Positions 12,139 to 33,430 of a stretch of 35,980 nt of DNA are shown here, piece after piece. Below the pieces are notes generated by a model. It saw only the letters and a list, made by a program, of their open reading frames with translations. It searched no databases and had not been told where the DNA came from. Both the position numbers and the translations under genes were made by a program. How positions within the stretch are numbered: the first letter of the stretch is position 1; every line of letters begins with the position of its first letter. This DNA comes from Myxococcales bacterium (GTDB lineage: Bacteria > Lernaellota > Lernaellaia > Lernaellales > Lernaellaceae): positions 1 to 35,980 of the forward strand of contig JAAYVF010000019.1 of assembly GCA_012517325.1 (NCBI GenBank), in the 5' to 3' direction.

Positions 12139-12996
12139 TCACTTCTCGATTCGCACCGTCACCAGCAGCACGTCGGAATGGGTGCGCGTGGTCGTCTCCC
12201 ACGAGCGGAACAGGTCGGTCACGCGGTTCATCGACTCGCCGGAAACGCCGCCCAACAGGATCTGGTCGCCGTCGCGAACCCGCACGGTGGTGCTCAGGTC
12301 CATGAAGGGCTGATTGGCCGGTCCCTTGGCGGTATAAAGCGTCGCGCGCGGCATGATCTTCAACTCGACCTCGTCGCCGACGATCCGCGGCCGCACTTCC
12401 AACGCGGTCTGCACCGACGTGACCTGACCAGTCATCACCGGGCCCAGCTTGCCGGCCCAGGCGAACCGGTCGGGTTGATACACCTGCTTTTGCCCGGCCA
12501 GCAGGGTTGCCGTTTCACCTTCCAGCACGCGCACTTCGACGCGGCTCGCGTCGGTGTTGCGGTCGATGCGCCGCAGCGCCTTGCCCTGCCCGCCGATGGT
12601 GCCGTCGCGCGACCTGGCGTCGAACGGCAACCGGCCGACGCGCCAGCCGCCGCCGGCCGCCGTCCAATCGACCGCGACGCCCAGATTTTCGTACTCGTCC
12701 GCGCCGATCCGTTGCGCCGCGATGTAAACCGTCCGCGGTCGCACATCGAGCTGCGCCAGCGCCTGCCTGACCCGCGCGATCGCCGCCGGGCTGCCGGTCA
12801 CGACCAGCGAGCCGGTGCGCGCGTCGACCGTGATCGTCCCCTCGGTTCCGAGCGCGGCCTGGAGCGCCGGCAACAGGTCTTCCGCTGTGCGGTATTGCGG
12901 CTTGAGCACCGCGAAGTCGTTGTCGGCGGCGTGAAGAATGATCGGCATCGCCAGTGTAACGAAAAGCATTGCGAGCAGGATCGAAAAACGGCGCAT
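12139..12996 (-). CDS. Minimal secretin-like protein
   Basis: The 285-residue product has a signal peptide (about residues 1-23), then a NolW/N1-like domain (about 25-90, including TITVDARTGSLVVTGSPAAI) of the type that forms rings in type II/III secretins. A secretin-type domain follows (about 150-285), with VEVRVLEGETATLLAGQKQ, a long amphipathic central strand region, and a C-terminal DGDQILLGGVSGES then LLVTVRI. These match the start and end of the secretin pore domain, but the usual VPxLGxIPxLGxLF core is reduced to RVTDLFRS. The protein is far shorter than real secretins. It stands alone, without type II, III or IV pilus genes. GGGAGG upstream of ATG supports the start. Confidence 0.72.
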   Translation of the reverse strand: MRRFSILLAMLFVTLAMPIILHAADNDFAVLKPQYRTAEDLLPALQAALGTEGTITVDARTGSLVVTGSPAAIARVRQALAQLDVRPRTVYIAAQRIGADEYENLGVAVDWTAAGGGWRVGRLPFDARSRDGTIGGQGKALRRIDRNTDASRVEVRVLEGETATLLAGQKQVYQPDRFAWAGKLGPVMTGQVTSVQTALEVRPRIVGDEVELKIMPRATLYTAKGPANQPFMDLSTTVRVRDGDQILLGGVSGESMNRVTDLFRSWETTTRTHSDVLLVTVRIEK

Positions 12997-15159: not shown

Positions 15160-16101
15160 ATGATTGAAGTGAAAAACCTGGTCAAACGATACGGCGACTA
15201 TCCGGCGGTGGACCGGATCAGTTTCCGGGTCGAAAAAGGGAAGATCCTCGGTTTTCTCGGCCCGAACGGCGCCGGCAAAACCACGACCATGCGGATCGTC
15301 ACCGGCTTCATGCCGCCGACCGCGGGCGAAGTGACCATCGACGGTTACAACATTATGACCCACCCGATGGAAGCGCGGCGGCGCATCGGTTACCTGCCCG
15401 AGACCCCGCCGCTGTACCCGGATTTGACGGTCCGCGACTACCTGACGTTCGCCGCCCGCATCAAGGGCGTGCCGCGCAAGAAGGTCGCCGAGCGCGTGAC
15501 GACCGTCGCCGGCAAATGCGGTGTCACCGACTACCTCGGCCGGCTGATCGCCGTGCTGTCGAAGGGCTACCGGCAACGGGTCGGCCTGGCGCAAGCCTTG
15601 GTGCACGATCCGGAAGTGCTGATTCTGGACGAGCCGACCATCGGCCTGGACCCGAACCAGATTCAGGAAATCCGCCAACTCATCCGCTCGCTGGCCGGCA
15701 ATCACACCGTGGTGCTTTCGACGCACATCCTGCCCGAGGTGACGATGACCTGCGACGACGTGATCATCATCAGCAAGGGCAAGATAGTGGCGGCCGACAC
15801 GCTGGAAAACCTGACCAGGTCCGGCGGCGGGCGCGCCCGGACCTATCTGCGGCTGGCCGAACCCGACGACAAGACGCTCGGCCTCCTGCAGAAAACGCCC
15901 GGCGTGGCCCGGGTCGAAACCGCGAAGGACCGGGGCGCTTTCTTCATCACCAGCCAACCGAACACCGATCCCTCGGCCGACCTCGGCGTGCTGGTGCTGC
16001 AACACGGCTGGGGTTTGCTTGAACTCCGCCACGAACGGCCGACGCTGGAGGAAGTCTTCAGCCGGCTGACCCTCGGCGAGGAGGATGCGGCTCATGCGTA
16101 A
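15160..16101 (+). CDS. ABC transporter ATPase, GldA-like
   Basis: This is the 313-residue nucleotide-binding subunit of an ABC-2 type exporter. Walker A is GPNGAGKT (34-41), the signature is LSKGYRQR (133-140) in place of LSGGQ, Walker B is VLILDEP (153-159), and the H-loop is His189. LSKGYRQRVGLAQAL is characteristic of the gliding-associated GldA group and related ATPases. The C-terminal extension after residue 225 is the usual regulatory tail of this group. It is the first gene of a tight operon: the permease start lies inside its last codons, then come a GldG-like and a DUF4340 protein. The exported substrate is unknown; presence does not by itself indicate gliding. Confidence 0.93.
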   Translation: MIEVKNLVKRYGDYPAVDRISFRVEKGKILGFLGPNGAGKTTTMRIVTGFMPPTAGEVTIDGYNIMTHPMEARRRIGYLPETPPLYPDLTVRDYLTFAARIKGVPRKKVAERVTTVAGKCGVTDYLGRLIAVLSKGYRQRVGLAQALVHDPEVLILDEPTIGLDPNQIQEIRQLIRSLAGNHTVVLSTHILPEVTMTCDDVIIISKGKIVAADTLENLTRSGGGRARTYLRLAEPDDKTLGLLQKTPGVARVETAKDRGAFFITSQPNTDPSADLGVLVLQHGWGLLELRHERPTLEEVFSRLTLGEEDAAHA

Positions 16102-16861
16102 CATTTGGGCGATCGCCGACAAGGAACTGCGGCAGTTTTTCGGCGGCTCGGTGGCCTACGTGGTCATGGCCGCTTTCCTGATGCTGACCGGGTTTTTCTT
16201 CTACGACATGGTGATGTCGTACAACCGTTACCTGGGCTACACCCAGATGAACCCGGCGATGATGGATCAGCTCAACATCAACGACCTGATCATCACGCCC
16301 CTCTTCCACAACATCAACGTGATCCTGTTGCTGATCGTGCCGCTCGTCACGATGCGGCTGTTCGCCGAGGAACGGAACCAGGGCACCGACGAAATGCTGC
16401 TGACCAGCCCGGTGAGCATCGGCCAGATCGTCACCGGCAAGTTCCTGGCGGCGACGGCTTTTTACCTGCTGCTCCTGCTGCTGACCGGCTTGTATCCGGC
16501 GATTCTGTTCAAGTACGCGAAGCCGGACATCGGCAAACTGGCGGCCGGTTACGCGGGCCTGATTTTGATGGGCGTTTCGTTCATCGCCTTCGGCCTGTTC
16601 GCCAGCACCCTGACGCGCAGCCAGGTCGTGGCGGCGATCGTCAGCTTCGCCGTGCTGCTGGTCTTCTGGATTCTGGGCTGGCTGGCCGAATCGCAGGCCG
16701 GCGTTTTCGGCAAAATCCTCAAATACCTGGCGATGACCGAGCACTTCGAGCGCTTCAGTCAAGGAATGATCGACACCAGCGACCTGCTGTACTTCGTCAG
16801 CTTCATCGCCTTCTTCTGGTTCATGGCCACCCGCGCCGTCGAATCGACCCGGTGGAGGTAA
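16094..16861 (+). CDS. ABC-2 type permease, GldF-like
   Basis: This is the membrane subunit of the exporter, 255 residues with about six transmembrane segments. It begins with the cytoplasmic KELRQFFGGSVAYVV motif typical of GldF/NosY-like permeases, has a long first periplasmic loop (about residues 40-75), then ERNQGTDEMLLTSPV, which is the conserved cytoplasmic coupling segment. The ATG at 16094 is preferred because GAGGAG sits about ten bases upstream; an ATG nine bases earlier lies directly on that site. The start overlaps the ATPase stop by 8 bases, so translation is probably coupled. Confidence 0.9.
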   Translation: MRNIWAIADKELRQFFGGSVAYVVMAAFLMLTGFFFYDMVMSYNRYLGYTQMNPAMMDQLNINDLIITPLFHNINVILLLIVPLVTMRLFAEERNQGTDEMLLTSPVSIGQIVTGKFLAATAFYLLLLLLTGLYPAILFKYAKPDIGKLAAGYAGLILMGVSFIAFGLFASTLTRSQVVAAIVSFAVLLVFWILGWLAESQAGVFGKILKYLAMTEHFERFSQGMIDTSDLLYFVSFIAFFWFMATRAVESTRWR

Positions 16862-16867
16862 GCGGCC

Positions 16868-18511
16868 ATGAAAACCTCTTATCGCATTTTCTTCTGGGAA
16901 GGCCTGGTGCTGGTGCTCTTCGCCGCCCTGACCCTGTTCTTCGTCAGTTTCGAGACGGTCTACGAGCTGCTGTTCCCGATCGTCTTCGGCGGCATCGGCC
17001 TGGCCGGGCTGGTGCTCGGCCTGGTGCTGTATCTGATCGACCTGAGCAAAACCGGCGAGAAGCGGCAGGGCGAGACGATGGGCGCCGGCCGCGTCAAACT
17101 GACCACCAAGTTCGGCGCCAACGCGATCACCTACTCGGCCGTTTTCCTCGGCATCCTGATCTTCGCCAACATCCTGGGCAGCGGCCACGTGAAAAAAATC
17201 GATCTGACCTCGGCGAAGGTCAACACCCTCTCCGACCAGACCAAGACCGTGCTGCAAAACCTGCCCGCCGGAACCGAACTGACGATGGTCGGCTTCTTTA
17301 AAACCGGCGAGGCCCGCAACTTCGAACAACTGGCCGGAAAATACAAAGACCTCGACCAACGGGTCACCTACCGCTCGATCGACCCCGACCTGTACCCCGA
17401 GGAAGTGAAGCGCTACGCGGTTTCCGAACGCGGCGCCATCGCCGTCTCCTGCGACCGGCCCGGCCAGAGCCCCGAGCAGAAGCAGACCGCCGACCGCTGC
17501 ACCGGCCAGACCAACATCACGATGGATCTGTCCGAGCAGGGCCTGACCACGGCCGTCATCAAGGTGTCGGCGCCGCAGGCCGGCAAGATCTATTTCATCC
17601 AAGGCCACGGCGAAGTGCCGCTCGACGGCGCCGAGGAGCGCGGTTACGCCCTGATCCGCAAAGGGATCGAAAACGAGAATATCGTCCTCGAACCGTTGAC
17701 GATGCTGACCTCGGCGCAGATTCCGCAGGACGCGCGGGCGCTGGTGATCGCCGGCCCGACGAAAAAATTCCAACCCGAGGAAGTCGCGGCGATCGGCAAC
17801 TACCTGCAAGGCGGCGGCCGCGTACTGGCGATGATCGACCCGCAGACCGAAACCGGCCTGGAGGGCTTGCTCGCCGGTTACGGCATCCAGCCGCAGAACA
17901 ACATCATCGTCGACCGCCAGGTCCGGATGTACCAGGGTTCGGTGCTCGGCCTGGACCCGATCGTCGTCAACTACGGCCCGCATGAAATCACGAAAAAATT
18001 TGGCGAGAACCCGACCCTGTTCCACGAGGCTCGCTCGCTGAAGATCATCACCGAGGGCCGGCTGGACGGCGTCGACACCCAACCGCTGCTCAACACCGGC
18101 GAGGAAAGCTGGGGCGAAACGGACTTCGGGTTCTTCGCCAAACAGGGCGTCGACCCGACGTTCGACCCGGCCAAGGATTCCAAAGGGCCGCTGGTGCTCG
18201 GCGCGGTCGCCGAGCGGACGTTCGGCGAGGGCGAGGCGAAAAAGACCGCGCGGCTGGCGGTCATCGGCGACAGCGATTTCATCGGCAACAAATACGCGCC
18301 GCAGGGCTACAACGCCGATCTGTTCTTCAACACGCTCAACTGGCTGACCGGCCAGGAAGCGTACATTTCGGTCCGGCCCAACAGCTTCGCGCCCGACGTC
18401 TTCACGATGACCGAGCAGGATACGGCGCTGTTGTTCTTCGCTTCGGTCTTCCTGCTGCCCCAATTCGCGGCGATGCTGGGCATCGGCGTGGCGATCCGGC
18501 GGCGGAGATAG
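16868..18511 (+). CDS. GldG-like ABC auxiliary protein
   Basis: This 547-residue protein belongs to the ABC_transp_aux/GldG type. Two or three transmembrane helices lie at the N-terminus (about residues 10-60 and 90-105). A large extracytoplasmic domain follows, opening with the family hallmark KIDLTSAKVNTLSDQTKTVLQNL and including IYFIQGHGE and ALVIAGPTKKFQPEEV, a Rossmann-like glutamine-amidotransferase-like fold. One helix (about 518-540) and a basic tail end it. It starts 6 bases after the permease stop and ends 2 bases before the DUF4340 gene. In this family it acts with the ATPase and permease, probably in the periplasm, but mechanism is unknown. Confidence 0.9.
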   Translation: MKTSYRIFFWEGLVLVLFAALTLFFVSFETVYELLFPIVFGGIGLAGLVLGLVLYLIDLSKTGEKRQGETMGAGRVKLTTKFGANAITYSAVFLGILIFANILGSGHVKKIDLTSAKVNTLSDQTKTVLQNLPAGTELTMVGFFKTGEARNFEQLAGKYKDLDQRVTYRSIDPDLYPEEVKRYAVSERGAIAVSCDRPGQSPEQKQTADRCTGQTNITMDLSEQGLTTAVIKVSAPQAGKIYFIQGHGEVPLDGAEERGYALIRKGIENENIVLEPLTMLTSAQIPQDARALVIAGPTKKFQPEEVAAIGNYLQGGGRVLAMIDPQTETGLEGLLAGYGIQPQNNIIVDRQVRMYQGSVLGLDPIVVNYGPHEITKKFGENPTLFHEARSLKIITEGRLDGVDTQPLLNTGEESWGETDFGFFAKQGVDPTFDPAKDSKGPLVLGAVAERTFGEGEAKKTARLAVIGDSDFIGNKYAPQGYNADLFFNTLNWLTGQEAYISVRPNSFAPDVFTMTEQDTALLFFASVFLLPQFAAMLGIGVAIRRRR

Positions 18512-18513
18512 CG

Positions 18514-20121
18514 ATGAACGCGAAAAAGACCCTGGTCCTGGCGATCGTGCTGGCCGCGTTGGCGGCGGTGGTCGTGTTCTGGGAACTGCCGCAGCAACGG
18601 GAGAAAGAGCGGACGGATCTCGAGGGCGACAAGATTCTCGACCTCGCCTACGACGCGATCAACAAAATCGAACTGGAGCGCGGCGACGAGAAGCTGGCCT
18701 TCGAAAAGGAAGCGACCGGCGAGGATTGGCGGATGAAAAAGCCGTTCGACGACGAAACCGAACGCTGGATCGTCCAATCGCTGATCAGCGCCGTCCGCTA
18801 CGCCCACCCGACGCGCACCCTCGACAAACCGGGCGCCGAAGCGCTGACCCGCTTCGGCCTGGACAAACCGCGCGCCGTGCTGACCTTCGATGCCGGATCG
18901 GTCACCAAGCGCCTGCGCATCGGCGCGAAAAACCCGATCGGCCAAACGGTATACCTCAAACCGGAAGACCGGGACGTCGTGTTTCTGGTGCCGGAAAGCA
19001 CCCTGGCGAGCCTCGATAAGCCCGCCGACGATTTCCGCCGGCGCGACCTGCTCGCCCCGGCCGATCCCACCCTCAAGATCAACCGGCTGACCCTCGCGGT
19101 CGCCGGCCGGCCCGAACTGACCCTGGTGCCGGCGACGCCGCCTAAAACCGAGGGCGAAAAGGACGCCGCGCCGGAAATGCCCGAGGACCAGATCTGGCAC
19201 CTCGACGAGCCGACCGGGCCCGTGGCCGATCCGGAAACCGTGCGCACCCTGCTGGATCTGGTCTCCGGGCTGAAAGCCGCCCGTTTCATCGGCCCGCTCG
19301 GCGCCGAGAACCAAAACTACGGCCTGGACAAGCCGAGCCTGACGGTCACCGCCGTCTACGGCGAAGGCGACAAACAGAAGACCCTGACGCTGACGATCGG
19401 CGGCACCGCCGAAACGCCCACCGAATGGTACGCGACGGTCAGCGGCCGGCCGTATGTCGCGATGCTGCTCGAATCGGCCTTTCAGGGTCTACGCCTCGAA
19501 CGGGCCGATCTGCGCGACCGCCGGTTGCTGGCCGGAATCGATCCGGCCAAGGTCGAATCGATCGACTTGCAAAGCGCGAAGACGTCGTTTAAAATCTCGC
19601 GTTCCGTGGACGGTTGGCAGTTTGCCGATGAAACGCCGGCCGACAAGGAAAGTGTCGAAAAATGTTTGCGCGCCGTCGCCAAATGGCGGGCGCAGGAGTT
19701 GGCGGACGGTCCGCGCGGCGCCCGGTTGGCCCGGGCGGTCAAGGGCAATCAGGTGACGAGCCTGGTCCTGACCGACGCGGACGGCAAGGTTTTGGAAAGC
19801 ATTCGTTTTTCCGAACCACTGGATCCGGGGAAAATCGCCCCGGTGAAAAAAGCCGTAGCCAAGGCCGAAACGGAAGAGAAGCCGGCCGAAAGCGCGGAAC
19901 GCCTGGTGGCGCTGGTCGCCAACGGGTATCCGCACACGGCGTATCTGGTGAAACCGGACGTCTTGAACGATCTCCCCGGGAGCATCGAGGAATTCAAGGC
20001 GACCGAACGGGACGACGCGAAGCAAGCCGCCGCGGCCGGCGGCCAATCGCCGAGCGAAGTCCAGACGATGCCGCCCGCCGAAATTCCGGCGGCGGCCCCG
20101 GGCGCACCGCCGGCGGAATGA
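18514..20121 (+). CDS. DUF4340 membrane-anchored protein
   Basis: This 535-residue protein has one N-terminal transmembrane helix (about residues 5-23) and a large periplasmic part. DUF4340-type repeats are visible in the DKPGAEALTRFGLDKPRAVLTF segment (about 105-130) and again at ENQNYGLDKPSLTVTAVYG (about 265-290): each holds the recurrent YGLDKP motif followed by beta strands. It ends in a low-complexity Ala/Pro/Glu tail. It is the last gene of the operon. DUF4340 genes regularly follow gldG-like genes, supporting a shared complex; biochemical function is unknown. Confidence 0.9.
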   Translation: MNAKKTLVLAIVLAALAAVVVFWELPQQREKERTDLEGDKILDLAYDAINKIELERGDEKLAFEKEATGEDWRMKKPFDDETERWIVQSLISAVRYAHPTRTLDKPGAEALTRFGLDKPRAVLTFDAGSVTKRLRIGAKNPIGQTVYLKPEDRDVVFLVPESTLASLDKPADDFRRRDLLAPADPTLKINRLTLAVAGRPELTLVPATPPKTEGEKDAAPEMPEDQIWHLDEPTGPVADPETVRTLLDLVSGLKAARFIGPLGAENQNYGLDKPSLTVTAVYGEGDKQKTLTLTIGGTAETPTEWYATVSGRPYVAMLLESAFQGLRLERADLRDRRLLAGIDPAKVESIDLQSAKTSFKISRSVDGWQFADETPADKESVEKCLRAVAKWRAQELADGPRGARLARAVKGNQVTSLVLTDADGKVLESIRFSEPLDPGKIAPVKKAVAKAETEEKPAESAERLVALVANGYPHTAYLVKPDVLNDLPGSIEEFKATERDDAKQAAAAGGQSPSEVQTMPPAEIPAAAPGAPPAE

Positions 20122-23247: not shown

Positions 23248-24051
23248 CTAATCTTCGACCTGCAACAAAGTTTCCTCGGCTTCTTTCTTTTTTACCAGCG
23301 CCTGCTCGGCCGCCTCGCGTATCTCGCGATGGACGTTGCCGTCGTTGAGCACCTCGCGCAACTCCTGCCGCTTGAGGGTCGGCAGCAGCGCCATGGCGAT
23401 CTGCGGCGGCGTGTACGGATTGCGCACCAGCGACAACCGCACGTCCGGCCGGGCGCGCCATTTGGCGCTTTCAAAAATCACCTGCAGGATTTCCGGCCGG
23501 TTGGGCCGGCGGGCCGAGATGGCCACCACCATTTTTTCGGTCAGGCGCGGGTTGGTCAACAGATCGCGGATCACGCGCGGGCTGACGTCGTAGCCGACGC
23601 GGGTCAACAGGTCGGGATCGAGGCTGCGCGCGGCGCTGGCGCGTTCGCCGACGGTCAGATTCGGCAGGCCGTACTTGAGAAACGACTCCTCATCGCCTTC
23701 CGGCGATTTGACGGGCTTGATGGTGCGAAACAGGTTGCAGACGTCGGTATGCTTTTGCCGGGCCGCGGCGTGATAGATCCGCCCGACGCGCAGCTTGCCG
23801 AGCGTCTCGAAGATGAGTTGGGCGTCGATGCCGGAGGAAACGAGCGCTTTGCAGGCGGAATCGCCTTGCAAGGCGCGGGCCTGGATTTCGTGCAGCACCT
23901 CGGCGATCACCTCGTCGTCCAGCGGTTCGATCCGGCGCACGAAAAAATGGCGGCGCAGGGACAGGTCGACGATCTGATCGGCAAAACGCACCAGATTGGC
24001 GATGGTTTCCTGAACGAGTTCCGCGGTGATTTTTTCCGCCACGCGCCGCAT
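23248..24051 (-). CDS. Repeat protein of unknown function (HEAT-like)
   Basis: This 267-residue soluble protein is predicted to be all helical with a repeating pattern (DVSPRVIRDLLTNPRLTEKMVV, ARPNRPEILQVIFES, RPDVRLSLVRNPYTPPQIAMALL). The leucine-rich helical pairs resemble HEAT or leucine-rich-variant repeats. The last segment is charged (VKKKEAEETLLQVED). The ATG at 24051 with GAAGG seven bases upstream is preferred over a TTG at 24084. It lies 72 bases after the stop of the REC-PATAN-J-TPR gene on the same strand and is probably its operon partner, perhaps a scaffold for it. Family not recognised. Confidence 0.7.
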   Translation of the reverse strand: MRRVAEKITAELVQETIANLVRFADQIVDLSLRRHFFVRRIEPLDDEVIAEVLHEIQARALQGDSACKALVSSGIDAQLIFETLGKLRVGRIYHAAARQKHTDVCNLFRTIKPVKSPEGDEESFLKYGLPNLTVGERASAARSLDPDLLTRVGYDVSPRVIRDLLTNPRLTEKMVVAISARRPNRPEILQVIFESAKWRARPDVRLSLVRNPYTPPQIAMALLPTLKRQELREVLNDGNVHREIREAAEQALVKKKEAEETLLQVED

Positions 24052-24123
24052 CCTTTCGCCTTCGGTCTGCCCGTAGAGTAGCAACCGCCGCGCCGGCGGT
24101 CAAAGCGCGTTTGGCCGAGGGGA

Positions 24124-26769
24124 TCAGAAGAAGATTTTTTTGATCGTTCGTTTGACGCTGGAAAAATCGATGTCTTTTTTCAGCAGGCTGCCGAGCTTTT
24201 CCTTTTCCTTGCCTTCCAGCTCGACGCGTTCGCGCTCGCGGTCGACCTGCAGCTTGCGCAGTTCGCCCTTCGCTTCCTCGTTGTTTTTGTTGTAGCGGAA
24301 AGCCAGCGCGAACATCTGGCGGGCTTTTTCCTTGTTGCCGAAGCCCAGCAGGATTTTGCCCAGGAAGAAATAGCCCTTGTCGCCCTTCGGATTGATTTTG
24401 ATCGACCGTTCGATCGATTCGCGGGCCTGGTTGGAGCGCTCGCCCTCGGGGCGTTCGGAGTTGTTGAAGCAGGCCCAGCCGTAAAAGGCGTGATACTCGC
24501 CTTCCTCCGGGAACAGGTCGCACGCCTCCCGGAAGTGGGTTTCGGCCTCGGCGAAACGCCCGCGCCGCAATGACAGCACGCCCTGGTTGAAGGCGCGTTC
24601 GGCGGCCAGGATCGTGGTGATGCGGCGTTCCTTCAGTTCCTCGCCCATGCCCGAAAGCCGCCGGTCGTATTCGGCGCGTTTCGCCACGTTCGCCAGCACG
24701 TTGTAGGCCAGGGTCAGCGATTGCACCACGCGGTTGGCCTTGTCTTTCAGTTCCGGGTCGCTCAGCGTGGCGATCTTGTCGGCGTGGTATTTTTTCACCA
24801 GGTTGTGATAGGCCATCTTGATCGCCAGCTCGCCGGCGTTGCGCGGCACGTCGAGCAATTCGTAGTGATTGCTTTGCTCGATCCGCAAAAACAGATTCAG
24901 CAACCCCTGAATCCATTCGTCGTCCACCGCGGACTGGTCGGCTTCCACCTCGTCGATCGGCGCCAGTTCGCCGGCCGGCGACGGCTTGATTTCCTGCTGC
25001 TCGAATTGCGCCAACTCCGCTTCCAGGTCGGGCGCCAGTTCGCTGCTCGGCGGCGGGGGCGACGCTGGAATGGGCGCCGTCGTTTCCGGTGCATCTTCAA
25101 AGACGAACAACAGATCGTCGTCACCGGCGGTCGCGGCCGGCGCGGCGGGGGATTCGTCGATCGGTTTCAAATCGACGGGCGCCGGCGCCTCGCTTTCCGG
25201 ATCCTGCCAGTCGATCTCGGTCAAATCGACCGTGACATCCTCGGCAAAGGTGGGTTCGACCACGGTGCGCGCCGGGCGCGGCGGCGAGGCGGGCTGCGGC
25301 GGCCGGGCGGGAGCCTCTTCTTCCTCGCGGCGCCGGTCGAACATCCGTAAAATCAACATGGCATAAAGGAGCAGGAAGGTCTGTTCGCGTTCGAGCGGCG
25401 AGGCGGCGACGATTTCGGCGAGCGTCCGCCGGCCGTCGATCAGGGAATGCAGCCGCCAGATTTCCTCGCCCAATTCGACCATCCGGCGGTCGAACGGCAA
25501 CGGTTCCGCGGGCACCACCACCTGATCGCCCACCTCGGCGAACATCTCCTCCACCGAGGCTGCGTCGTAAGAATGCAAAACGCCGTCGAGGATGAGCCGC
25601 GGCATCGGCAATTCGAAAATCGTCAGGCTGAGCTTGTCGAAGGCGACTTCGTCGAAGTAGTACGAACCTTCGAGCCATTGAAAGAGATTGAGCAGTTTCT
25701 CGCGCATCTGCTGGCGCAGGGCCTGGTAGAGCTGCATCGGGTTGAGGATGCCCAGCTCGACCATCGCCCCGCCCTGCCGGCGCCCGAAGGCGGCCATGTT
25801 TTCGAGCGAGAGCATGACGTCCTGCTCGCTGACGATCCCCTGCCGCATCAACACCTGGCCCAGGCTTTCCTGGCGGCTTTCGCTTTCGACGTAGACGGCG
25901 CGGCCCTCGTCGAAATAAACGTGCTTGTAATTGCCCTGGTGCGACAGCTCGAGAATGCCGGTCTTCCGGCTGTAATAAAGATAGGCCATCAGCTCGGGAA
26001 CGCTGATTTCCTCCAGCAGCCCCTCGCGCGGAAATTCCTCGTCGCTTTCCGCCGCGTCGACCTCAGCCAGCTCCGGAAGTTCTTCCGTGAGCGGCTCGGC
26101 GGCCGCGGCCGCCGGCGGCTTGGCTTCGAACAAATCGGTCATCTCGGCCAGCAGATCGGCCAGCGGGTTGTCGGCGCCGGACGGGGGTTTGATGCCTTCG
26201 TTGATCTGGGCGACCTTCGGGGCGCGATCGAGCAATTCCGTGCCGGCGATGTCCGCCAGCGTTTTATCGAGCAGATCGTCGAGCGAGATTTCCGGCTCGC
26301 GCGCCGCGTGGGCCGGCGTGGGCCGGTTCGTCGCCGACGTGGTTTCGGGCGGGGCGGCCGCGGTCGCCGGCGGCCGGCTCGGCCGCTCGCGCGGGGGCCG
26401 CGCGGCGATCAATTTCTCGACGTCCTCGACCAGCGCCTTGGGCATGTAAGGCGATTGGTAATAGCGATCGGCTTTCCACAATTTGAGAACGCGTTCGGCC
26501 ATGTTGGTCTGGCGAAAGAGGCTGCTGACGATCACGATGGGGATTTGATCGCCGTCCGGATCGCTCTTGATCCGCTGGCAGAGTTCGCCGCCCGACAGTT
26601 TGGGAATCAGCACGTCGATGACGATCGCGGCCGGCAAATGCTCCTTGAACAGGTCGAACCCCGCCAGGCCGTCCGCGGCCGGTATGACCTCGAAGCCTTC
26701 TTTTTCGAAAAAGGTGGAAATGCGGCGCAATTCGCCGCGGTTGTTAATGACAATGAGGATTTTTTCCAC
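24124..26769 (-). CDS. REC-PATAN-J-domain-TPR signalling protein
   Basis: This 881-residue cytoplasmic protein is assembled from four modules. A receiver (REC, about 1-122) keeps the phospho-acceptor-position Asp52, but the acidic pair is N9 N10 and the conserved Lys before Pro is Ser106. A Pro/Ala-rich linker follows. A PATAN/DUF4388 domain (about 250-375) contains ISVPELMAYLYYSRKTG and GQVLMRQGIVSE. A helical segment (425-480) leads to a second linker rich in Pro, Ala and Asp. A J-domain-like unit (633-705) has HAD (662-664) in place of HPD. TPR repeats fill about 725-835, before a Lys/Glu-rich tail ending KKIFF. PATAN proteins with receivers occur in deltaproteobacteria and cyanobacteria in motility and cell-polarity signalling. 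No SD is obvious to me. Confidence 0.85.
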   Translation of the reverse strand: MEKILIVINNRGELRRISTFFEKEGFEVIPAADGLAGFDLFKEHLPAAIVIDVLIPKLSGGELCQRIKSDPDGDQIPIVIVSSLFRQTNMAERVLKLWKADRYYQSPYMPKALVEDVEKLIAARPPRERPSRPPATAAAPPETTSATNRPTPAHAAREPEISLDDLLDKTLADIAGTELLDRAPKVAQINEGIKPPSGADNPLADLLAEMTDLFEAKPPAAAAAEPLTEELPELAEVDAAESDEEFPREGLLEEISVPELMAYLYYSRKTGILELSHQGNYKHVYFDEGRAVYVESESRQESLGQVLMRQGIVSEQDVMLSLENMAAFGRRQGGAMVELGILNPMQLYQALRQQMREKLLNLFQWLEGSYYFDEVAFDKLSLTIFELPMPRLILDGVLHSYDAASVEEMFAEVGDQVVVPAEPLPFDRRMVELGEEIWRLHSLIDGRRTLAEIVAASPLEREQTFLLLYAMLILRMFDRRREEEEAPARPPQPASPPRPARTVVEPTFAEDVTVDLTEIDWQDPESEAPAPVDLKPIDESPAAPAATAGDDDLLFVFEDAPETTAPIPASPPPPSSELAPDLEAELAQFEQQEIKPSPAGELAPIDEVEADQSAVDDEWIQGLLNLFLRIEQSNHYELLDVPRNAGELAIKMAYHNLVKKYHADKIATLSDPELKDKANRVVQSLTLAYNVLANVAKRAEYDRRLSGMGEELKERRITTILAAERAFNQGVLSLRRGRFAEAETHFREACDLFPEEGEYHAFYGWACFNNSERPEGERSNQARESIERSIKINPKGDKGYFFLGKILLGFGNKEKARQMFALAFRYNKNNEEAKGELRKLQVDRERERVELEGKEKEKLGSLLKKDIDFSSVKRTIKKIFF

Positions 26770-26832: not shown

Positions 26833-26907
26833 ATGTCAAGTTTTATTCCGTATCCCCTTTCGGCCCCCCGCCGGCGACGGCAGCGGGCGGCCCTTTTTAC
26901 TTGACAT
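26833..26907. promoter_or_regulatory. Divergent TTGACA elements
   Basis: In the gap between the divergent genes, CTTGACAT occurs on the plus strand at 26900-26907 and, as its reverse complement ATGTCAAG, at 26833-26840. They point outward, toward the TPR gene at 26937 and the REC-PATAN-J-TPR gene at 26769. Neither has a clear -10 box at 17 bases, so either they are weak promoters or the pair is an operator. Confidence 0.3.
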
Positions 26908-26936
26908 CCGGGCCTCGCTTGCTTGAAGCTGTTTGC

Positions 26937-27566
26937 ATGGAACCGGAAAGCAAACAGGTCGAAAAGCAAGTTTCTTTAGAGAATATAACCGTTTTTCGTC
27001 CCCCGCAAAAAACGCCGCCCATCGTCTGGGTCCGCCGCGTCGTGGTGTGGTCCGTGGTGATCGCCGTTTTTTCGTGGGCGTTCGTTTCCTGTTACCGCGT
27101 TTTTTCGCACGGGAAGGTTAAAACGCCCAACCTGGTCAACGTCAACGTCGCCCGCACCCTGCCGCCCTCGACCGGCGAATACAAATTTGAAAAGGCCCGC
27201 GACCTTTTCGTCGCCGGCCGCAATCTCTTGCGCGCCGGCGATTTCTCCGGCCTGGCGACGCTGGAGGAAGTGCTCCGGTCCTACCCCGATTCGCCGCAGG
27301 CACGCCAGGCGTTGCTGGTCATCGCCGCCACCCAGCGTTATCAGTTGAAGCAGCCGAAAAAGGCGCTCGCCGAGTACGAACGTTTCGTGCGGACCTACCC
27401 CGAGGACGCGCAGGTCGTCCGCGCCCTCGCCGCCATTCGTTCGTTGTCGGGTGAATTGAAGGAAACCGATTCGAGCGACACCCTGGCCCGCCTCGCGCTG
27501 GCGAAGGTCGCCGACAATCCCCCGGCGAAAGCCCGGCTGGAAAAGTGGCTGACCCCGAAACCTTAA
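26937..27566 (+). CDS. Membrane-anchored TPR protein
   Basis: This 209-residue protein has one transmembrane helix (about residues 36-52, VVVWSVVIAVFSWAFVS) with a basic N-terminal flank and a C-terminal region of TPR-like helices (FVAGRNLLRAGDFSGLATLEE, DSPQARQALLVIAA, KALAEYERFVRTYP). It resembles YbgF/CpoB-type TPR proteins but lacks the N-terminal coiled coil, so the assignment is only to a TPR fold. The start is the ATG preceded by GAAG; an earlier in-frame codon at 26901 lies on the TTGACA element. Function unknown. It is convergent with the DHH phosphoesterase, 4 bases apart. Confidence 0.75.
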   Translation: MEPESKQVEKQVSLENITVFRPPQKTPPIVWVRRVVVWSVVIAVFSWAFVSCYRVFSHGKVKTPNLVNVNVARTLPPSTGEYKFEKARDLFVAGRNLLRAGDFSGLATLEEVLRSYPDSPQARQALLVIAATQRYQLKQPKKALAEYERFVRTYPEDAQVVRALAAIRSLSGELKETDSSDTLARLALAKVADNPPAKARLEKWLTPKP

Positions 27567-31300: not shown

Positions 31301-33430
31301 TCAATCCGCCCAGTAGCGGCGGCGGCCCTGCTGGAAATCGAGCTGCAGGCGCCGGGTTCCCAGTTCGATCGCGGTGACGTTGTCGCCGAACTCCTGGTAG
31401 CAATACGGGTTGTCGAACCGCGCGTAGGGGCCGAGATCCACCGTTTCGCCGTCGACGACCATCGCGCCGGTATAACCGACTTCGACCGTGCCGCGGCTGG
31501 GTGATTCGTAGGTCACGGCATCGCCGATCGTCACCGTCGCGTTTTGGATGTCGGCGACGAATTGCGCGAACGAGCCGTTTTCCGCCGCGTCGCCCAATTC
31601 GACGAGCCACACGTTCTCCCGTGCGTCGGCGATCAATTCGTAGTCGTTTTCCGTCGACCAGACCGGCGGTTCCTGCGAATACAGCGCCACGTAGGCGTCG
31701 CCTTTGCGGCCGATGGTCCAGTGTTCGTCCTGGACCAATTCGTCGAATTCGTTCTTCGGGAAATAGGCATGCGAGTAATCGACGAACAGGTACTGATCGA
31801 GCAACGGAATGTCCGGCCGCCGGTATTGGAAGACGCCGACGTTCTTGAACATCGTCGCCCGCGGCGTCCAGCCGCCGGTCCAGGGTCCGGCCATGTAGTC
31901 GTCGGCCAGCCCGCCCGGATACGAAGTGAACACGTAGGCGTCGGCATCGAGCGTCGCCTGCCAGATGTGAATCTGGGCGGTCCACATGCCCGGATTGTAA
32001 TCCTGTGCGCCGGAAAGCTGATAATCCGGCGTCCGGTAGGTGTAGGTGCCCATCGTTTCCAGCGCCACGCCGCGCGACATCGGCTCCAGCAGGGTGGAGA
32101 CGAATTTCAACAACGGACTGCCGACCAGGAAGCGCAGGAAGGCGAGGTCGCTCCACAGGAAACCGTCCCACATGTCGAAATTTTCCACGAGGTCGAACGT
32201 GCCGGTAACGATATCGGGCGCCACGTAGCCGGTGGCCCCCCACCAGAAGAGGATGTCGTCCCAATCCTCGTAGCCGATGCCGTAATCCGGGCCGTCGGCG
32301 ATGTCGATGCTGTCCCGCTGCCGGTGCTCCAGTTCGTTGAGCGCGTCGTTCGCGACGTCTTCCAGCACGGCCGGCGGCCAGTAGAAATCGCTGGTCGCCA
32401 GGTGCGTGGCGCTGAAGTTGCCGCTGCCGTTGCGGGTTCCTAGCCCCAGCATGATCCAGGCCGCGCCATCGGTCGAATCGGACAAGCCGCCGAGCAGATG
32501 GCTCTGGTAGGTGCGGCCGTGCGTCGTGGCATACAGCCCGCGGTAATAGTTGGCGGCCATGTCGAAAGCGAGAATATCCAGGGTCATCGCGGCCTTGGTT
32601 CGTGCGGTATCGTCCTCGGCGAAATCGACCAGGTTGACCAGCGCCGGCATATCCTCGTTGAAGTAAACGTTCGAGTGCCATTCGGAAAAGCCGAATTTGC
32701 CGCGGAAATCGAGCCAGCGCAGAACCTGCGGCAAGGCATGGGCCACGTGCTCGGCGCCGGTCATGCCGGCATTCGGAAACACGTCGTCGGGGAACAACTG
32801 CCCGGCCAGCAACTCGGCGGAATGAAACAGGATTTGGTGATTTTCCGACCACCAGCACATCGTGTCCGGCCCGGTTTCGTCCAGCCAGTATTTGAAGTTG
32901 AGCACCGCGGCCTCGATGTCCGCCTTCAACTCCGTCGGCAGCACGTTCCGGTCGCGATCGAGATACAACAGGCGCAACAGGGAATTCAGGTCGAAATCCG
33001 CGGTGTCCTCGCGGGCGTTGATCTCCGCCAGGCTTTCCTGAATGGCCGTTTCGCTGTAGGTCGTTTCGCCGTTGTAAACCCGGCAGACCTGGCCGTAGAC
33101 GCCGCCGTCGGGCGGGGCATTGTCGGCGTCGCACGCCGCCAGGTACTCGGCCTGCCGGCTCAGAAAACCATCCGTCGGCTCGATTGGATCGCCGGGATCG
33201 GTATCGTCGTTGTCGTCATTGTCGTCGTTGTCGTCATTGTCGTCATTATCGTCATTGTCATCATTGTCGTCATTGTCGTCATCGTTATCGTCATCATCGT
33301 CGGCGACGGAGCTATCGTCATCGTCATCGTCAACCGATGAAGAATCATCATCATCGTCATCGCCGCATGCCGCCAGCGAAAAAAGCGCCAGAAGTGAGAG
33401 AATGAACAACAGCCCGCAATAGAGTTTCAT
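31301..33430 (-). CDS. Large lipoprotein with predicted alpha-toroid domain
   Basis: This 709-residue lipoprotein has its lipidated Cys at 22 (LAAC), then a long Asp/Asn/Ser linker (about 24-77) encoded partly by the 9-bp tandem repeat at 33206-33277. The following part (about 90-480) is rich in helices with conserved-looking WWSENHQILFHSAELLAGQL, GFSEWHSNVYF and DFYWPPAVL, a pattern reminiscent of (alpha/alpha)6 toroid enzymes such as heparinase-like lyases. The C-terminal 200 residues look like a beta sandwich. I do not place it in a named family and call it only a candidate surface polysaccharide-active enzyme. AT-rich DNA flanks it on both sides. Confidence 0.75.
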   Translation of the reverse strand: MKLYCGLLFILSLLALFSLAACGDDDDDDSSSVDDDDDDSSVADDDDDNDDDNDDNDDNDDNDDNDDNDDNDDNDDTDPGDPIEPTDGFLSRQAEYLAACDADNAPPDGGVYGQVCRVYNGETTYSETAIQESLAEINAREDTADFDLNSLLRLLYLDRDRNVLPTELKADIEAAVLNFKYWLDETGPDTMCWWSENHQILFHSAELLAGQLFPDDVFPNAGMTGAEHVAHALPQVLRWLDFRGKFGFSEWHSNVYFNEDMPALVNLVDFAEDDTARTKAAMTLDILAFDMAANYYRGLYATTHGRTYQSHLLGGLSDSTDGAAWIMLGLGTRNGSGNFSATHLATSDFYWPPAVLEDVANDALNELEHRQRDSIDIADGPDYGIGYEDWDDILFWWGATGYVAPDIVTGTFDLVENFDMWDGFLWSDLAFLRFLVGSPLLKFVSTLLEPMSRGVALETMGTYTYRTPDYQLSGAQDYNPGMWTAQIHIWQATLDADAYVFTSYPGGLADDYMAGPWTGGWTPRATMFKNVGVFQYRRPDIPLLDQYLFVDYSHAYFPKNEFDELVQDEHWTIGRKGDAYVALYSQEPPVWSTENDYELIADARENVWLVELGDAAENGSFAQFVADIQNATVTIGDAVTYESPSRGTVEVGYTGAMVVDGETVDLGPYARFDNPYCYQEFGDNVTAIELGTRRLQLDFQQGRRRYWAD
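33206..33277. repeat. 9-bp tandem repeat encoding an Asp/Asn linker
   Basis: Eight near-identical 9-base units (GTCATTGTC and one-base variants on the plus strand) lie in a row, inside the lipoprotein gene on the minus strand. Each unit keeps the reading frame and encodes Asp-Asn-Asp-type tripeptides. Shorter stretches of similar GTC/ATC triplets extend on both sides to about 33200-33360. Confidence 0.85.

Follow-up and report, generated by a model that had tools for sequence, protein, structure and literature searches.

A REC-PATAN-J-TPR protein with a pseudo-receiver and an altered J domain, accompanied by an intact paralogue in seven genomes of one phylum

The locus, its neighbours and its relatives

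Within the window, that is, the whole stretch of 35,980 nucleotides that was analysed, positions 24124-26769 of the minus strand encode an 881-aa protein, and a plausible AAAGG stands about 10 bases upstream of the GTG start. The encoded protein has the domain order REC-PATAN(DUF4388)-DnaJ-TPR, and all of its Pfam matches stand above the curated cut-offs. We found no earlier description of this layout in the open-access literature, which is weak evidence of absence. The features at the locus are the following, the calls of the flanking genes being based on ORF length and GC3:

24124..26769, minus strand: REC-PATAN-J-TPR gene, 881 aa, GTG start (translation; Pfam and NCBIfam matches; orthologues in 7/7 genomes of the phylum)
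26425..26760, minus strand: receiver-like domain, residues 4-115 (Pfam PF00072, Response_reg, E 2e-11; DivK alignment)
25579..26025, minus strand: PATAN domain (DUF4388), residues 249-397 (PF14332, 77.9 bits against a cut-off of 25, E 9e-22)
25708..25866, minus strand: MshEN-like 24-5-24 helical insert within PATAN, residues 302-354 (NCBIfam NF053729, E 1.8e-7, 30.9 bits, below the cut-off of 38; motif register)
24664..24870, minus strand: J domain, residues 634-702 (PF00226, 41.7 bits against a cut-off of 27.8, E 1e-10; contact-residue table)
24256..24600, minus strand: TPR repeats, residues ~724-838, with the conserved block FPEEGEYHAFYGW (Pfam TPR_2, E 1e-9, best stretch 724-755, and TPR_8; further Pfam TPR match at 799-830; alignment; single-sequence model; Foldseek TPR matches)
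24127..24168, minus strand: C-terminal tail DFSSVKRTIKKIFF, basic and amphipathic (alignment; hydrophobic moment 0.48, charge +3)
26901..27566, plus strand: divergent neighbour, 221 aa, one apparent membrane span and TPR (Pfam, BLAST, HMM)
23248..24084, minus strand: downstream neighbour, 278 aa, without a Pfam match that passes the cut-off; retained close to the orthologue in G001

Seven genomes of the same phylum, mostly fragmented assemblies, were compared (G000 to G006, G000 being the source genome). In G001 and G006 a counterpart of the 26901-27566 gene is likewise the divergently oriented next neighbour, and in G002 it lies on the same contig. The block of ABC transporter, rpoZ, DnaJ and PilZ genes keeps its order in G001, and in the source genome a CheX gene, which was not found at the G001 locus, stands between PilZ and the 23248-24084 gene. 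Elsewhere in the window, 15160-20121 holds ABC ATPase, permease, GldG-like and DUF4340 genes that are syntenic in G001 (the labels GldA-like and GldG-like come from NCBIfam matches below the curated cut-offs), 12139-12996 encodes a 285-aa protein with secretin N and secretin domains, no other secretion gene being recognised beside it, and 31301-33430 encodes a 709-aa protein in which a signal-like N-terminus is followed by a long Asp/Asn-rich run. No pilus genes were recognised beside the 24124-26769 gene in the loci read.

In a tree of 43 PATAN-J-TPR proteins the orthologues, one from each of the seven genomes, form a single clade (support 99/94), inside which none of the tree's proteins from outside the phylum is placed. 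All seven genomes also have a sister paralogue with the same REC-PATAN-J-TPR layout; six of these form a clade with support of 100/100, to which a split copy in G006 is added. Both groups are single-copy per genome and have the same domain order where the proteins are complete. Wherever the sister receiver can be read, in six copies, its residues are DD-D-S-K (a contig end interrupts the copy of G002), and all seven J domains have HPD. In the source genome this paralogue is found on another contig:

G000:C53:37409-39664: intact paralogue, REC-PATAN-J-TPR with a DD-D-S-K receiver and HPD

It resembles the 24124-26769 protein in domain order and in size, and differs from it in the DD-D-S-K and HPD residues and in belonging to a separate clade.

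Receiver and J domain across the orthologues

Aligned with DivK, the receiver has Ile8-Asn9 (26743-26748) where the acidic pair would be; the initial annotation had put the pair at Asn9-Asn10, off by one residue, as Asn10 comes right after it. Its other readings agree with the translation, in which Asp52 (26614-26616) is present, Ser106 (26452-26454) stands at the Lys position, and HAD occupies residues 662-664 (24778-24786) of the J domain. Ser82 is at the Thr/Ser position and Tyr103 at K-3. A pseudo-receiver has been defined as one in which any one of five residues is missing (PMC12632262), and here three are replaced (DD1 by Ile8, DD2 by Asn9, the Lys by Ser106), with Asp52 and Ser82 kept. 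The class of aspartate-less receivers (ALR) was considered and rejected, as Asp52 is present. To judge from the sequence, residues that canonical Mg-dependent phosphotransfer requires are missing from the receiver.

The same holds across the orthologous group. Given here, and below for the HPD position, in the order G000, G001, G002, G004, G005, G006, G003, the residues at DD2 are N, H, H, H, H, H, V, those at the Lys position S, A, W, E, E, E, R, and those at position 52 D, N, S, A, T, T, D. The earlier expectation that Mg-dependent phosphorylation is unlikely is supported by this group-wide pseudo-receiver, from which DD2 and Lys have gone in all seven. Whether the receiver signature is conserved, a check that the annotation had proposed, has a mixed answer, in that the loss of DD2 and Lys is uniform but Asp52 survives only in the source copy and in G003, the phospho-Asp being absent from five of the six other orthologues. 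Since about 2% of receivers generally lack the Asp (PMC12632262), its loss in 5/7 orthologues is far from that background, although the sequences are related and the events not independent. A Trp is found at receiver position 98 in six of the seven. The receiver of the G006 orthologue (L045:8206-8570) was read in two frames across an apparent one-base frameshift inside the domain, which may be an assembly error or real.

The presence of a J fold at residues 633-705, which had been proposed from the sequence, is supported by full-length J homology, above the Pfam cut-off, and by core residues, of which Tyr7, Leu10 and Tyr25 (E. coli DnaJ numbering) are kept in all seven orthologues and the Tyr54 position holds Y, H or F. 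In a single-sequence model residues 645-659 and 672-704 are helical and HAD falls in the turn, at a pLDDT there of only ~58-73; the mean over the J-TPR model is 73.6, the confident part being mainly the TPR, and Foldseek matches are mostly TPR proteins. The HPD position reads HAD, HPD, HAD, HSD, HPD, HPD, SVK, so that HAD is not a conserved feature of the group (HAD 2/7, HPD 3/7, HSD 1/7, SVK 1/7), whereas H and D are kept in six of seven. As the HPD of G001 stands in the tree between the HAD of G000 and that of G002, the motif has changed either twice or once with a reversal, and at least three changes of HPD are needed across the group. Close homologues with DD, Lys and HPD had been named as what would make this copy an odd variant; DD and Lys occur together in no orthologue, but HPD does occur in some.

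A second change concerns the surface that faces DnaK. Val682 sits where E. coli DnaJ has Phe47, a residue that contacts DnaK (PMC13012618), and at this position the orthologues carry, in the order of the contact-residue table, V, V, M, M, V, I, T, replaced in every one, as against F in 7/7 intact sister copies and in 21 of 30 other family members. At Arg27 they have N, A, A, D, V, R, R (basic residue replaced in 5/7), and all intact copies have K or R. Because Phe47, and mostly Arg27, are replaced group-wide, the DnaK-facing surface was partly changed before the Pro or independently of it. As far as aligned residues tell, the J domain has kept the residues of its fold and altered part of the surface that meets DnaK. 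The statement that HAD abolishes DnaK stimulation is nevertheless too strong: the His and Asp are still in place, HPD itself persists in three of the orthologues, and for P34A the paper found offers only a simulation, in which H33 and D35 are disoriented (PMC13012618), a result that predicts a weakening of DnaK stimulation but is no proof of its loss. Among published replacements, HPN and QPD abolish stimulation (PMC13254874). Type IV (pseudo) J proteins such as Pam16 likewise have a recognisable J domain with an altered HPD, and the source copy with its HAD fits that description, which does not extend to the group, as HPD stands in three orthologues; Pam16 differs further in having DKE or DKS and in pairing with Pam18, whereas here H and D are kept.

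The two groups of paralogues also differ in how their domains have been conserved. Pairwise identity between genomes in the intact group is 60-83% for REC, 42-73 for PATAN, 47-74 for J and 56-82 for TPR, the receiver being the best-kept domain in most pairs. In the pseudo group the ranges are 22-55% for REC, 26-52 for J, 32-66 for PATAN and 36-68 for TPR, and the receiver is the least kept domain in 11 of 15 pairs, the J domain in the other four. Better preserved in the pseudo group are PATAN, the TPR repeats and the tail at the C-terminus.

A strict coupling of receiver decay to J decay was considered for the wider family and rejected, as one member (L103) joins an intact receiver to SPD, and two others (L008, L101) join pseudo-receivers to HPD. 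Elsewhere in the source genome, three adjacent PATAN-paralogue genes (L048:6327-12916, contig C85), one of them with two PATAN domains, have receivers at various stages of decay and one J domain with RPY for HPD. A further pair of adjacent PATAN proteins (L050:7532-12998, contig C41) has two J-like stretches each, with HPD at the aligned position in one of the four.

PATAN domain, C-terminal tail and type IV pili

The PATAN assignment rests on sequence comparison, a single-sequence AlphaFold model of this part reaching a pLDDT of 41. Inside the domain, at 303-354, is the match to NF053729, an MshE-related c-di-GMP motif. The insert resembles the MshEN/GSPII receptors of c-di-GMP in that its helical insert keeps the 24-5-24 spacing of the MshEN motif definition (PMC5013675) in register. 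It differs in that its two 24-residue motifs do not both carry the Arg, Leu-Gly and Gln of the receptors: Ser302 replaces the Arg and Met325 the Gln of the first motif, Gln332 replaces the Leu of the second, and Arg331 and Gln354 are kept. A relaxed form of the published motif fits both halves in 2 of the 60 PATAN inserts examined, so the deviation in ligand residues is general to the family; c-di-GMP binding by the insert was set aside, key ligand residues being missing, and is not claimed.

The PATAN-CheY regulators of cyanobacteria (PixE, PixG, LsiR) share with this protein a receiver and a PATAN domain with a helical insertion, and differ in having PATAN first and neither J nor TPR. PixE and others bind PilB1 (PMC7690835, PMC10519157); by analogy, the 24124-26769 protein may have a target at type IV pili. 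In the source genome PilB and PilT are encoded elsewhere, and a different REC-PATAN gene lies directly behind pilT in G000, G001 and G002, an arrangement that match positions also indicate in G006, whose pilT has a broken frame. The pilT-linked genes are L058:6527-7717, L116:3556-4794 and L117:1949-3112 (and L118:3826-5037). Their receivers likewise lack the acidic pair, the Asp and the Lys, which makes them a second PATAN group with pseudo-receivers, and pseudo-receiver PATAN regulators at type IV pili therefore seem to be a habit of the phylum.

At the C-terminus, six of the seven orthologues share the pattern VK-K/R-x-I/L-x-K-I/L-F-W/F/T. The hydrophobic moment of the tail is 0.44-0.56 and its charge +2 or +3 in the five orthologues measured, and the same calculation gave 0.41 and 0.65 for yardstick peptides that we take to be the tails of E. 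coli MinD and FtsA. The amphipathicity is suggestive only, because equally high values are reached in 8 to 66 windows of the protein concerned, and the conservation of the tail is the stronger point. The tail is perhaps a peripheral membrane anchor.

Possible modes of action

The reading that we tentatively prefer, at somewhat less than even confidence, is that the 24124-26769 protein is the pseudo-copy of a duplicated REC-PATAN-J-TPR pair and serves as a phosphorylation-independent adaptor, with a pilus target as its likeliest form. The pseudo-receiver and the TPR would hold partner proteins, the tail would tether the adaptor peripherally to the membrane, and PATAN would contact a motor ATPase, or the regulators of one, with type IV pili as the most plausible system. 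Such an adaptor would act constitutively, with DnaK coupling weak or none, and the intact sister paralogue would supply the phosphorylation-gated, DnaK-recruiting version. The role as a scaffold or binding module put forward in the initial annotation is a natural reading, given the group-wide pseudo-receiver, the kept residues of the J fold and the loss of Phe47 throughout. Its suggested link to motility is plausible, through the PilB binding of cyanobacterial PATAN proteins (cited in PMC10519157 and PMC9090330) and the REC-PATAN genes next to pilT, but the gene's own neighbours are not pilus genes; by analogy, the protein plausibly has a role in surface motility.

The nearest working parallels are the PATAN-PilB interaction and that of FrzS with SgmX. 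In Myxococcus xanthus, FrzS likewise has an N-terminal receiver without the phosphorylation residues that works as a binding module (PMC1974792, PMC11580455), and this pseudo-receiver binds the TPR protein SgmX (PMC11580455). The differences are that FrzS lacks the phospho-Asp, which the present copy keeps as Asp52, and that its receiver is followed by a long coiled coil, whereas here PATAN, J and TPR come after the receiver.

What sits awkwardly with an adaptor that has no contact with DnaK is the survival of H and D in nearly all orthologues, which is odd. The J domain may still recruit DnaK, though more weakly, HAD and HSD being tuned-down forms of the motif, and may bring it, with no phosphorylation switch involved, to a motor bound by PATAN. 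We regard this as rather unlikely. It is favoured by those conserved residues, by the HPD of three orthologues, among them the nearest relative, by the two full-length DnaK genes of the source genome and by the tolerance of some systems for HPD to AAA, alongside the simulated effect of P34A (PMC13012618). DnaK1 and DnaJ3, moreover, act with type IV pili in cyanobacteria, and DnaK1 binds PilB in Nostoc (PMC9239167), which is a parallel for why a PATAN protein might contain a J domain. The replaced Phe47 contact, the basic residue lost at Arg27 in most orthologues and the SVK of G003 weigh against it.

The degenerate protein could instead act on its own paralogue, pairing pseudo-receiver with receiver or degenerate J with J and so restraining the active copy. 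That both paralogues occur in all seven genomes agrees with such a partnership, as does the stable inhibitory complex in which the degenerate J protein Pam16 holds Pam18 (PMC13254874), but there is no linkage between the genes, which in the source genome are on contigs C19 and C53, and we consider it improbable. More doubtful still is a form in which the pseudo-receiver and the degenerate J domain jointly set the active copy's phosphorylation and its DnaK recruitment at a membrane-bound motor, the degenerate copy being a silent partner. Relaxed decay, in which receiver and J domain are passengers and only PATAN and TPR matter, would account for the low REC and J identities in the group and for at least three separate replacements of HPD. 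Both domains are however full length, the frame is open apart from a single frameshift in the G006 assembly, and residues of the core are kept, including Trp98 in 6/7 receivers and Tyr25 in 7/7 J domains; decay of this kind is likewise an improbable account.

The group bears on two wider questions. How pseudo-receivers are switched has been called a mystery (PMC12632262), and whether deviations from HPD are accidental or selected has been called enigmatic (PMC13254874). Intact and degenerate proteins of the same layout in 7/7 genomes form a natural control pair, and a single orthologous group offers graded variants of the motif (HPD, HAD, HSD, SVK); both questions are therefore directly testable here with a few purified domains.
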